From contig NZ_CP007140.1 of NCBI RefSeq assembly GCF_000816105.1, forward strand, positions 806,001 through 870,000: a stretch of DNA of 64,000 bases, written 5' to 3'. Positions 8,626 to 51,098 of the stretch are shown one piece after another (the first letter of the stretch is position 1; each line of letters begins with the position of its first letter). The position numbers were made by a program, and so were the translations under genes. This DNA is from Thermococcus guaymasensis DSM 11113 (GTDB lineage: Archaea > Methanobacteriota_B > Thermococci > Thermococcales > Thermococcaceae). Under the pieces are notes generated by a model, which ran no database searches, was not told where the DNA came from, and saw only the letters and a list, made by a program, of their open reading frames with translations.

Positions 8626-9653
8626 TGAAGCCCATGATACCGGTCACCGTCGTGAGGCGACTGCTCCGCGTGAGGGTCAAGGTGAGCAGAAACCGGCTAA
8701 TCCAGATAGCTCTCGCGGTCCTGCTCCTGGCAATCGCGTTTGCGACGGCTTTTGCTTACTTTGAGGGCGTTGACTTTTTCACTGCCTTCTACTGGGCGAT
8801 TATTACAATGGCCACGATAGGCTACGGCGACGTCACTCCTTCAACTGAGGGAGGAAGAATCATTGCTATGGTAGCTTCAGTCGCCGGTATATCCACTTTT
8901 ACTGCCCTCATTTCTCTTTTGGCTGAGAACTTTATCTCTTCATCCATCAGGAGGATGATGGGCATGCACCGTGTTAGCTACTCCAATCATTATCTGGTAA
9001 TTGGCCAAGGAAGTAGCGTTTCAACCTGCGTTAACGAACTTATGAGCGCAATTGAGCGCGGTGAGCTAAAACTCGCCCCGATAGTGGTCCTCTTTCCCAG
9101 CGAGGAGGAGCGCAAGAAGGTTGAGCTTCCAGAGGAAATAGAGGTCCTCATTGGCGACCCCACCAACAGAGAGACCCTCGAAAGGGCCCGGGTTGACAGG
9201 GCTTCTCACGTAATCTTGGCCCTTGAAGACGACTCCAAAGCCGTCTTCGTGACCCTTATGGTGAAGAGGATGTCGAATGCAAAGGTTCTCGTCGAGGTTC
9301 TGAGCGAGGACAGTGTTGAGCTGCTCAAAGGGGCCGGTGCCGATAGGGTCATAGTGAGCAGAAGCTTGGCTGGAAGGCTTCTCGCGAGTTCAGTCTTCGA
9401 GCCGGAGGTGGTCGACGTCATAGACGACATAACGAGCTCGGTTAAGGGCTACGACGTCACAGTGATGGATGGGAAGGAGTTCTGGGGCAGGCCCTACATA
9501 GCGGCCCTCCGAGAGCTCAAAGAGGAAAGAAACCTCTTTCTCCTTGGCTACTACCTTGGTGCTCCGGTTCTCAATCCCCCACTCGACGAGCCGATTCCCG
9601 AGGGTGCCAGGCTGATAGTTTTGAGGGGCTCTGTTTCCACTGGAAAACTCTAA
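8625..9653 (+). CDS. Potassium channel with RCK/TrkA-N domain
   Basis: Two-helix potassium channel of 342 residues. After a basic N-terminus come TM1, a pore helix with the selectivity filter TIGYGD, and TM2. The cytoplasmic part has a Rossmann-like RCK domain starting HYLVIGQGSSVS and a C-terminal TrkA-C-like part. This MthK/Kch-type layout implies ligand-gated potassium flux across the membrane. I chose ATG 8625 because the longer TTG start at 8589 has no ribosome-binding site; ATG 8634 is also possible. A TATA-like CTTTTTAA lies just upstream, so the mRNA may be nearly leaderless. Its last codons contain a further ORB core. It separates oriC from radA and has no obvious role in replication. 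Confidence 0.9.
   Translation: MKPMIPVTVVRRLLRVRVKVSRNRLIQIALAVLLLAIAFATAFAYFEGVDFFTAFYWAIITMATIGYGDVTPSTEGGRIIAMVASVAGISTFTALISLLAENFISSSIRRMMGMHRVSYSNHYLVIGQGSSVSTCVNELMSAIERGELKLAPIVVLFPSEEERKKVELPEEIEVLIGDPTNRETLERARVDRASHVILALEDDSKAVFVTLMVKRMSNAKVLVEVLSEDSVELLKGAGADRVIVSRSLAGRLLASSVFEPEVVDVIDDITSSVKGYDVTVMDGKEFWGRPYIAALRELKEERNLFLLGYYLGAPVLNPPLDEPIPEGARLIVLRGSVSTGKL
9633..9647 (-). repeat. ORB core at the 3' end of the potassium-channel gene
   Basis: TTTCCACTGGAAAA begins at 9634 and is preceded by GAGGGGCTCTG. On the minus strand this is core, spacer and a C/G-rich end like the oriC ORBs. It encodes the terminal VSTGKL, which is not part of a conserved domain, so protein constraint is unlikely to explain it. 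Confidence 0.6.
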
Positions 9654-33225: not shown

Positions 33226-34866
33226 TCAGTCGAGGTCGCTGCTAAAGTCCTCGCTTCCGCCCTTGCCGCCTTCCTTGTCCTTCTCAAGCTTGCTGGCGGC
33301 GATGACGTCGTCGATCCTGAGGATCATTATGGCAGCCTCGCTAGCGCTCTTGATGGCCTGCTTGGTTACTCTGACCGGCGCAATGACGCCGCGCTCCATC
33401 ATGTCGGCCGGCTCGCCCTCGAAGACGTCGATACCGATGGTCGGTCCCTTCTCCTTGTGGGCGGCGATGACCTTCACGAGTGTCTCGATCGGGTCAAGAC
33501 CGGCGTTCTCGGCGAGAGTCCTCGGGATGACCTTGAGGGCCTCCGCGAAGTTCTCGATGGCGAGCTGCTCCTTGCCGCCGACCTCCTTGGCGTACTCGTC
33601 GAGCTTGATGGCGAGCTCAATCTCCGGAGCACCCCCGGCGGCGACGATCTTGCCGTCCTCGACGATGTCCTTGACGACCTTGACGGCGTCCTCAAGGGCC
33701 CTCTCGACCTCGTCGACCACGTGCTCGGTACCGCCCCTGATGAGTATGGTCACAGCCTTCGGGTTCTTGCAACCCTCAACGAAGATCATGTTCTCGCCGG
33801 CGACCTTCCTCTGCTCGACGAGCTCGGCCTCACCGAGGTCCTCGGCAGTTAGGTCGCGGACGTTGGTGACGATCTTGGCGCCGGTGGCTTTGGCGAGCTT
33901 CTCCATGTCGCTCTTCTTGACGCGCCTCACGGCCATTATGCCGTACTTGGCCAGATAGTGCTGGGCAAGGTCGTCAATACCCTTCTGGACGAAGACGACG
34001 TTCGCTCCAACCTCCTTGATCTTGTCGACCATCTCCCTGAGCATCTTCTCCTCCTGCTCAAGGAAGGCCTGGAGCTGCTCCGGGCTGGTGATCCTTATCT
34101 CGGCGTCGGTCTCGGTCTCCTTGACCTCAAGGGCCTCGTTTATGAGGGCGATCTTGGCGTTCTCGACCCTCTTTGGCATTCCCGGGTGGACAACTTCCTT
34201 GTCGATGACGACGCCCCTGATGAGCTTGGTGTCCCGGACGCTGCCGCCCTCCTTCTTTTCGAACTTGATGTTGTCGAGGTCGACCTTGTAGGTGCCGTCG
34301 ACCTTCTCGGCGACCTGCCTGACGGCCTCAACGGCGATCTCGGCGAGGTACTCGCGCTCCTCCTCGGCGGCCTTACCGGTGATGGCGGTGACGGCGGCCT
34401 TCTTGAGCATCTCAACGTCATCAACGTCAACGTCCTTGGCTATCTGGTCGAGTATCTCCTGGGCCTTGTCAGCTGCAAGGGCGTAACCCTTTATGATTAT
34501 GCTCGGGTGGATGTTCTGGTCGAGGAGCTCCTCGGCCTTCCTGAGAAGCTCACCAGCGATGACGACTGCAGTAGTAGTACCATCACCAGCCTCCTTGTCC
34601 TGAGTCTTCGCAACCTCAACCATCATCTTCGCAGCCGGGTGCTGGATGTCCATCTCGTCGAGTATTGTTGCACCGTCGTTGGTTATGACGATGTCACCGA
34701 GGCTGTCGACGAGCATTTTATCCATTCCCTTCGGGCCGAGGGTGGTTCTAACGGTCTCGGCTATGATTCTCGCGGCGAGAATGTTGAGCCTCTGGGCGTC
34801 CCTACCAACGTACCTCTGGGTTCCCTCAGGCAGAATAACAACCGGCTGTCCAGCGAGCTGGGCCAT
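33226..34866 (-). CDS. cpkB: Thermosome (group II chaperonin) subunit, CpkB-like
   Basis: 546-residue subunit of the ATP-driven double-ring protein-folding chamber. Motifs: [28 protein letters not shown] (ATP-binding loop with catalytic Asp) and GGAPEIELA. The tail ends SEDFSSDLD, like the heat-inducible CpkB subunit of T. kodakarensis rather than cold-type CpkA, whose C-terminus is Gly/Met-rich. GGAGGTGA is the ribosome-binding site, six bases from ATG. The leader contains a hairpin over this site and a Phr-like half-site, and a strong TATA lies at 34954-34963. Only one chaperonin gene is in the window. Confidence 0.94.
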
Positions 34867-34875
34867 CTCCCCTCA

Positions 34876-34907
34876 CCTCCGTCTATCTTTATTTTTATCG
34901 ACGGAGG
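34876..34907 (-). promoter_or_regulatory. cpkB leader hairpin covering the Shine-Dalgarno sequence
   Basis: In the mRNA, CCUCCGUC (34907-34900) can pair perfectly with GACGGAGG (34883-34876), an 8-bp stem with a 16-base A-rich loop. The downstream arm contains GGAGG of the GGAGGUGA ribosome-binding site. With the TATA at 34954-34963, both arms are expected to be in the leader. Confidence 0.65.
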
Positions 34908-34910
34908 ACT

Positions 34911-34925
34911 TTTAGTTACAATTAG
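34911..34925 (+). promoter_or_regulatory. Phr-like heat-shock regulator half-site
   Basis: TTTAGTTACAATTAG matches the left half and centre of the published Phr consensus TTTnnTnnCnnnnnG. The right half (nnAnnAAA) does not match. It lies just downstream of the expected cpkB transcription start, the usual place for Phr. Confidence 0.35.
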
Positions 34926-34953
34926 TGTTTCCGCTTTATGGTTCCTTTGGACT

Positions 34954-34963
34954 ATTTATAAAG
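34954..34963 (-). promoter_or_regulatory. TATA box of cpkB
   Basis: CTTTATAAAT on the minus strand with a purine-rich BRE-like CCGAAAA upstream. It predicts a transcription start near 34931-34934 and a leader of about 65 bases. Confidence 0.7.
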
Positions 34964-35027
34964 TTTTCGGTCAGCTTCTGGGGTAATGAGGACCTTATGA
35001 CGGCTGAGGAAGTCAGGAGAGGGTCGG

Positions 35028-35783
35028 TTAAGCCCGACCGGGAATTTTTCTGCCCGTATGTCTACTGTGGAGCTCGAAAAACTGGTTCACGTGAACCTGG
35101 ACGCCGAGCTCTTCAAGTTTTTTCCTGAGTTCCTCGACCTCCCCCTCCGGCCAGCAGTGTTCCGAGCACCACTCCTCATCCCTCGGGTTGGTCAGGGGTT
35201 TTCCAACGAGCGGGTTCAGGACGACGTAGAAGTCCGATTCAATTCTCCCCAGACCCATCTCGATGTAGGGCCACGCGTTCAAGCCCCTCGCCACAGGAAT
35301 CCTGAGCTCCAGCGGAATTCCGTAGTCGGAAACCACCTCAAGTCCCCTCAGGAAGAGCCTCCAGAGCTTTTTCGCTGGCTTCTCAGGGAGGCCGTAGAGC
35401 TCTGGCGGTGCCTTGAGGTCGGTCGCTACGTGGTCAACCAGACCCGCCTTCAGGAGCTTTTCCAGGGGCCCGACGAGAGTGAGGTTTGTGTTGAGGCTCA
35501 TGGGGATGTCAAGGAGCTTCACCTCTGCGAGGAGCGAGCTTAACTCCCTCCACTGCATCAGCGGTTCGCCACCTGTGACGTGAAAGTAATCGACGAGAAA
35601 CGCGCTCGCCTCAAGCTCGTCGAGGAGGGCTTCTCTATCGAGGGGAAAGCAGTCGAGGCCCTCAGCGATGCGCCAGTTGTGGCAGAAGGGGCACTTGAGG
35701 TTGCACCCGCAGAGCCAGAGCGTGAAGGTCACCCTGCCGTGGACGTCCACCATGCTGACGCTCTTCCACCCGCTCGTGAGCAT
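35028..35783 (-). CDS. nrdG: Anaerobic ribonucleotide reductase activating enzyme NrdG
   Basis: 251-residue radical SAM enzyme that makes the glycyl radical on NrdD. The cluster motif is CNLKCPFC (about 27-34), followed by FHVTGGEPLMQ and LNTNLTLV. GGAGGTGG precedes the ATG. It is directly downstream of nrdD (22-base gap) on the same strand. Length is larger than the roughly 155-residue bacterial NrdG, as in other archaeal forms. Confidence 0.9.
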   Translation of the reverse strand: MLTSGWKSVSMVDVHGRVTFTLWLCGCNLKCPFCHNWRIAEGLDCFPLDREALLDELEASAFLVDYFHVTGGEPLMQWRELSSLLAEVKLLDIPMSLNTNLTLVGPLEKLLKAGLVDHVATDLKAPPELYGLPEKPAKKLWRLFLRGLEVVSDYGIPLELRIPVARGLNAWPYIEMGLGRIESDFYVVLNPLVGKPLTNPRDEEWCSEHCWPEGEVEELRKKLEELGVQVHVNQFFELHSRHTGRKIPGRA

Positions 35784-49661: not shown

Positions 49662-49730
49662 TTTTCATCCCGGCAGGGATAAGGCTTTTCTCTTAAATCC
49701 TTTTCTCAGAAAAGAAAGGGGAGGAGGGCA

Positions 49731-51098
<1,368 letters not shown>

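Follow-up and report, generated by a model that had tools for sequence, protein, structure and literature searches.

The 64,000-nt stretch of DNA analyzed here (the window) carries a gene for a cpkB-type thermosome subunit, and both the gene and its mRNA lie on the minus strand, a point that the preliminary description of this locus had left out. From upstream to downstream, the promoter, the leader, and the gene are arranged as follows.

34963-34969, minus strand: A-rich BRE, CGAAAAC, which precedes the TATA box (direct sequence reading)
34953-34962, minus strand: TATA box, TTTATAAATA (direct sequence reading; conserved in orthologs)
34932, minus strand: predicted transcription start site (TSS), the G that follows C 34933 at the junction between GC and GGAAAC (from TATA spacing and the pyrimidine(-1)/purine(+1) rule)
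34910-34921, minus strand: Phr-operator-like sequence, TTGTAACTAAAA, at +12 to +23 relative to the predicted TSS, resembling the Phr consensus TGGTAA...AAAA (PMC9133787)
34900-34907, minus strand: 5′ arm of the hairpin, CCUCCGUC, complementary to the arm that carries the Shine-Dalgarno (SD) sequence
34884-34899, minus strand: A-rich loop of 16 nt, GAUAAAAAUAAAGAUA (direct sequence reading; A-rich in all orthologs)
34876-34883, minus strand: 3′ arm of the hairpin, GACGGAGG, which carries the GGAGG core of the SD and is paired in the minimum free energy fold of the sense strand
34873-34880, minus strand: SD, GGAGGUGA, 6 nt before the AUG (34866-34864), which fits the Thermococcus ribosome-binding-site consensus GGDGRD (PMC4247193)
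33226-34866, minus strand: coding sequence of the cpkB-type thermosome subunit, 546 aa (matches to NF041083, TIGR02339, and PF00118)

In a profile search, the coding sequence matches NF041083 (thermosome_beta) with 883 bits, and it is up to 97% identical to its orthologs; on these sequence grounds, the product is a true thermosome subunit. The only other thermosome gene in the genome (G000:C1:1622022-1623629) encodes a paralog of the cpkA type that is 81% identical.

The predicted TSS lies upstream of the 5′ arm rather than inside or downstream of it, which is the arrangement on which the preliminary description had made its proposal depend. In T. kodakarensis, the spacing between the TATA box and the TSS has a median of 23 bp (PMC4247193), and the TSSs of Thermococcus are purine-rich with a pyrimidine at position -1 (PMC5316973). 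The BRE and TATA box form a strong element. Since the TATA spacing and the purine/pyrimidine rule agree on G 34932, the leader is predicted to be approximately 66 nt long. The hairpin should be contained in this leader, given a start that is predicted from the sequence. The predicted length is long against the median leader lengths reported for T. kodakarensis (16 nt; PMC4247193) and T. onnurineus (12 nt; PMC5316973).

As originally described, an 8-bp stem places the GGAGG of the SD in its 3′ arm, opposite a 5′ arm from which it is separated by an A-rich loop. The stem is perfect and, together with its loop, occupies exactly 34876-34907; the 3′ arm covers most of the SD. The hairpin is the best structure of the folded sense strand, and folding of the plus strand gives the same complementarity. 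To this, the preliminary description had added the argument that perfect pairing would not be expected by chance, and the shuffles bear it out. When the leader block preceding the 3′ arm was randomized and the 3′ arm was kept, a perfect stem of at least 8 bp covering at least four bases of the SD core was obtained in none of 20,000 mononucleotide and in 143 of 20,000 dinucleotide shuffles. This rarity argues against an explanation by chance or composition, according to which a pyrimidine-rich leader opposite a G-rich SD pairs without having a function of its own, an alternative to which we return below.

The masking of the SD is strong also relative to other genes. Opening the cpkB SD costs 12.1 kcal/mol at 37 °C, which is the highest value with a fixed 7-nt window, and ranks second when every gene's own SD is used, among 298 SD-bearing ORFs from a 464-kb sample of the 1,920,914-bp genome (the ORFs were called roughly and probably include some that are not genes). 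In two further ORFs, at 8867-9653 (plus strand) and 49730-51068 (minus strand), whose starts were assigned mechanically, an SD-like sequence is also strongly paired, and opening it costs more than 10 kcal/mol at 37 °C. Among the other heat-shock genes of the same genome, hsp20 and two Cdc48/VAT genes have no comparable hairpin, and a thermometer common to all heat-shock genes is rejected on this ground. With respect to known families, a search with Rfam over 34800-35030 gave no family at the gathering score, the best match being far below the cut-off, and hence no ROSE element was recognized. A fourU thermometer is excluded, the 5′ arm having no run of four U residues against the SD.

Thermococcus grows at about 60 to 95 °C. 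The hairpin was originally proposed to open near the upper end of the growth range and thereby act as an RNA thermometer. The free energy calculated for the isolated stem rises from -13.4 kcal/mol at 37 °C through -7.5 (60 °C) and -1.0 (85 °C) to +0.25 (90 °C) and crosses zero at about 89 °C; all melting figures extrapolate parameters that hold for 37 °C and 1 M salt. Within the predicted leader, the SD has a mean unpaired probability of 0.09 at 60 °C, which climbs to 0.33 (85 °C) and 0.51 (95 °C); the predicted half-melting temperatures blend several structures. The calculated melting range fits the growth range of Thermococcus, and a melting point far below growth temperature, which was seen as fatal to the proposal, is not what these calculations predict. 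They also bear on a second alternative, in which heat induction is purely transcriptional, acting through a Phr-type operator in the leader, and the stem keeps translation constitutively low, as a brake that does not switch with temperature. Such a brake needs no stem with a calculated stability that reaches zero inside the growth range.

Leaders of cpkB were gathered from Thermococcales genomes of five genera (g1 to g5, where g1 is Thermococcus, the genus of the source genome). Because the distance between the Phr-like site and the AUG is 52 nt in 66 of the 69 leaders, the columns could be aligned free of gaps; a few leaders (e.g., L022 and L036) were trimmed or adjusted to the common length. 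Scored against the source genome, the 44 Thermococcus leaders reach an SD-opening percentile of 0.97 in the median, and 33 of them are above the 90th percentile. On the same background, the medians are 0.997 in g4, 0.99 in g2, and 0.98 in g5, and only 0.74 in g3, while the leaders of the cpkA-type (cold-type) paralogs have a median of 0.35 (n = 41). The sharp difference in masking between the heat-type and the cold-type paralogs is a second point against the stem being a constitutive brake. Pairing is weak or lacking in several orthologs (L014, L016, L035, and L102), some Thermococcus genomes do without it, and L011 has its own version of the hairpin.

The genera differ in how, and whether, the SD is masked. 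In Thermococcus, and partly in g4, the SD pairs with an upstream arm, and this pairing exceeds that of composition-matched shuffles (mean z of 2.06 in g1 and 1.19 in g4). Upstream-arm pairing is no better than in such shuffles in g3 and g5, and the masking is absent from the Pyrococcus-like (g3) genomes. Each g3 genome has one thermosome match, versus two in most others, and the coincidence of a single gene with absent masking counts as just one contrast in evolution. The partner of the SD region in g2 and g5 is instead the beginning of the coding sequence (UGGGC or UGGGU with GCCCA). This coding-start pairing ranks first among 48 synonymous versions in the g2 leader L045 and in four of the five g5 genomes; g1 uses the same first codons, and codon choice alone therefore does not show that pairing was selected for. 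In the g2 and g5 leaders L045, L052, L053, L056, and L057, the pairing of the SD with the first codons makes a different masking hairpin, whose loop holds the AUG.

Whether the pairing is kept by compensatory change was a check named in the preliminary description, and it was addressed with the 38 distinct g1 leaders and a tree built from coding sequences. In these leaders, 80.3% of the stem cells are paired versus 51 to 66% in slid registers, and the covariation score is 0.262 versus at most 0.148 in slid registers, a score reached in 2 of 500 shuffles. Column pair 17-38 occurs as four Watson-Crick types (U-A 13, G-C 7, A-U 3, and C-G 1). Opposite the SD core, U and C are each conserved in 41 of 43 Thermococcus, and this conservation of the pyrimidine-rich arm is another argument against a stem without function. 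Resimulation of the 3′ columns along the tree, at the rates and composition of these columns, reached the observed pairing in 4 of 500 cases. For resimulated 5′ columns, the counts out of 500 that reached the observed values were 16 for pairing at the variable pairs, 131 for total pairing, and 171 for the opening energy. Because the resimulated 5′ columns often match the observed total pairing and opening energy, much of the effect is attributable to the base composition of the 5′ arm, and the last of these counts speaks for chance and composition. The lack of an RNAalifold consensus structure for the 38 distinct Thermococcus leaders points the same way; this null result arises because up to a third of the sequences break individual pairs. 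With the substitutions moved to random columns, the observed pairing was reached in 0 of 300 cases, but this null is too lenient, since substitutions may land on the SD columns, and the column resimulation carries more weight. Cognate arms beat permuted arms, with 1 of 300 permutations as good, by a statistic that ignores phylogeny. The tree-based and shuffle tests all point to maintained pairing, and we regard pairing by chance or composition as improbable. Collectively, the leaders suggest a masking structure that is maintained in most Thermococcus but is drifting, and the support for this is real but modest (phylogeny-aware p of about 0.01 to 0.03). Of the expected covariation, then, the retention of pairing in relatives with some compensatory change stands, but it does not extend to all lineages and its phylogeny-corrected significance is modest.

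The drift has implications for a third alternative, namely that a protein, a ligand, or a small RNA binds the hairpin (e.g., feedback by an RNA-binding protein), with temperature acting only indirectly. Lineages differ in the sequence and the register of the stem but retain its complementarity to the SD, a pattern that fits masking better than a fixed motif, and the absence of an Rfam family match is a further point against such a site. Conversely, the 52-nt distance between the Phr-like site and the AUG is found also in the hairpin-less Pyrococcus-like leaders, which suggests a constraint other than the stem and gives the binding-site model some footing. Even so, we judge it to be quite improbable.

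Part of the evidence for transcriptional control comes from the Phr-like site. The Phr consensus comprises TTTA, TGGTAA, and AAAA around the TSS; in cpkB, the Phr-like sequence lies at +12 to +23, and the upstream TTTA part is not recognized. The TAACTAAAA motif or a close variant is kept in nearly all cpkB orthologs of the five genera, including those that lack the hairpin, as a purely transcriptional mechanism would lead one to expect. Between this motif and the AUG (34867-34918), the intervening sequence varies freely. In the same genome, hsp20 (L177), one of the genes without a comparable hairpin, has a fuller, classical Phr-like site, TTTAGTAACTACTGGTAACCAAAA, close to its predicted start, which again is in keeping with heat induction by transcription alone. 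At G000:C1:50238 (L132), GGTAACTAAAA and a TATA-like box immediately precede a gene that has an SD and a short leader, a candidate for a further Phr target.

Moreover, the P. furiosus thermosome is up at the RNA level on heat shock (log2FC of 2.7) as part of the Phr-directed response (PMC10746257). Because of this induction, transcription may explain most of the heat induction of cpkB, in which case the hairpin may act mainly to keep CpkB low in the cooler part of the growth range. CpkB has been described as heat-shock-induced and CpkA as cold-induced (PMC7137780; the same sentence calls both of them small heat shock proteins, an apparent slip), in line with the premise of heat induction in the preliminary description, but in the T. 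kodakarensis proteome both thermosome subunits increased about 3-fold under heat (PMC4473059). Taking the points on both sides together, we consider a purely transcriptional induction with a constitutive brake unlikely, although it deserves to be taken seriously.

The best-supported reading is, in our view, a zipper-type RNA thermometer that operates on top of transcriptional control, and we place its probability at about the midpoint between true and false. In this model, an anti-SD-like 5′ arm in the cpkB leader of approximately 66 nt would pair with the SD in a short GC-rich hairpin. At about 60 to 80 °C, the stem would be stable and initiation on cpkB would be held back, and the cpkA paralog, with its open leader, would be translated meanwhile. 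At about 85 to 95 °C, that is, towards and above the optimum, the stem would open progressively and CpkB would be made. The hairpin would thus act after a Phr-type transcriptional control, as a translational gate. The thermometer reading draws support from the SD-masking hairpin and its strength among the genes sampled, from the relatives that keep the pairing, and from the contrast with cpkA; it is tempered by the lineages that do not keep the pairing, by the modest significance, by the heat-shock genes that have no such hairpin, by the P. furiosus and proteome data, and by a temperature effect that is calculated. A broader version of this proposal is more tentative, and we hold it to be somewhat less probable than its negation: a natural archaeal thermometer, operating at about 60 to 95 °C, would divide the labor between heat-type and cold-type chaperonins, would be absent in genomes of the Pyrococcus type with a single gene, and would be replaced in other Thermococcales genera by the SD hairpin at the coding start.

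RNA thermometers are common in bacteria. Among the open-access papers searched, including those on heat shock in Thermococcales and other archaea, we found no description of a natural archaeal RNA thermometer and none that operates near 90 °C, which agrees with the remark in the preliminary description that a thermometer in a hyperthermophile is not established. If the thermometer reading is correct, cpkB would provide a natural archaeal RNA thermometer and would indicate that RNA helices can be tuned as heat sensors at the upper end of life's temperature range. In addition, the heat-shock response, for which Phr has so far been the main explanation, would gain a translational layer. For genetic work, T. 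kodakarensis is a tractable host.

Zipper-type bacterial RNA thermometers are single SD-masking hairpins, e.g., that of hsp17 of Synechocystis. The cpkB candidate is like these in being a single short hairpin that pairs with the SD of a heat-shock gene from within its 5′ UTR and has a calculated melting near the upper growth range. Unlike these, it belongs to an archaeal thermosome gene and has a GC-rich, perfect 8-bp stem with a calculated melting near 89 °C, compared with about 40 °C. The synthetic thermometer of Methanosarcina mazei, reported in 2024 and called by its authors the first to be used in an archaeon (PMC11549558), is likewise an archaeal 5′ UTR element, and it gives more protein on warming from 30 to 40 °C; however, it was designed, whereas the cpkB candidate is natural and is found in a hyperthermophile. 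The predicted fluoride and preQ1 riboswitches of Thermococcales are, like the cpkB hairpin, structured leaders with a possible role in the control of expression (PMC4247193). The cpkB leader differs from them in having neither a recognized ligand-binding domain nor an Rfam match. The 2014 paper on the T. kodakarensis transcriptome noted that in vivo regulation by attenuators or riboswitches had no direct experimental backing in Archaea (PMC4247193). As to the Phr regulon of Thermococcales (PMC9133787, PMC10746257), cpkB is likewise a heat-shock gene with a Phr-like site in its leader, although this site is positioned approximately 12 nt downstream of where the consensus would place it. Phr acts on DNA at the initiation of transcription, whereas the cpkB hairpin would act on the mRNA at the initiation of translation.
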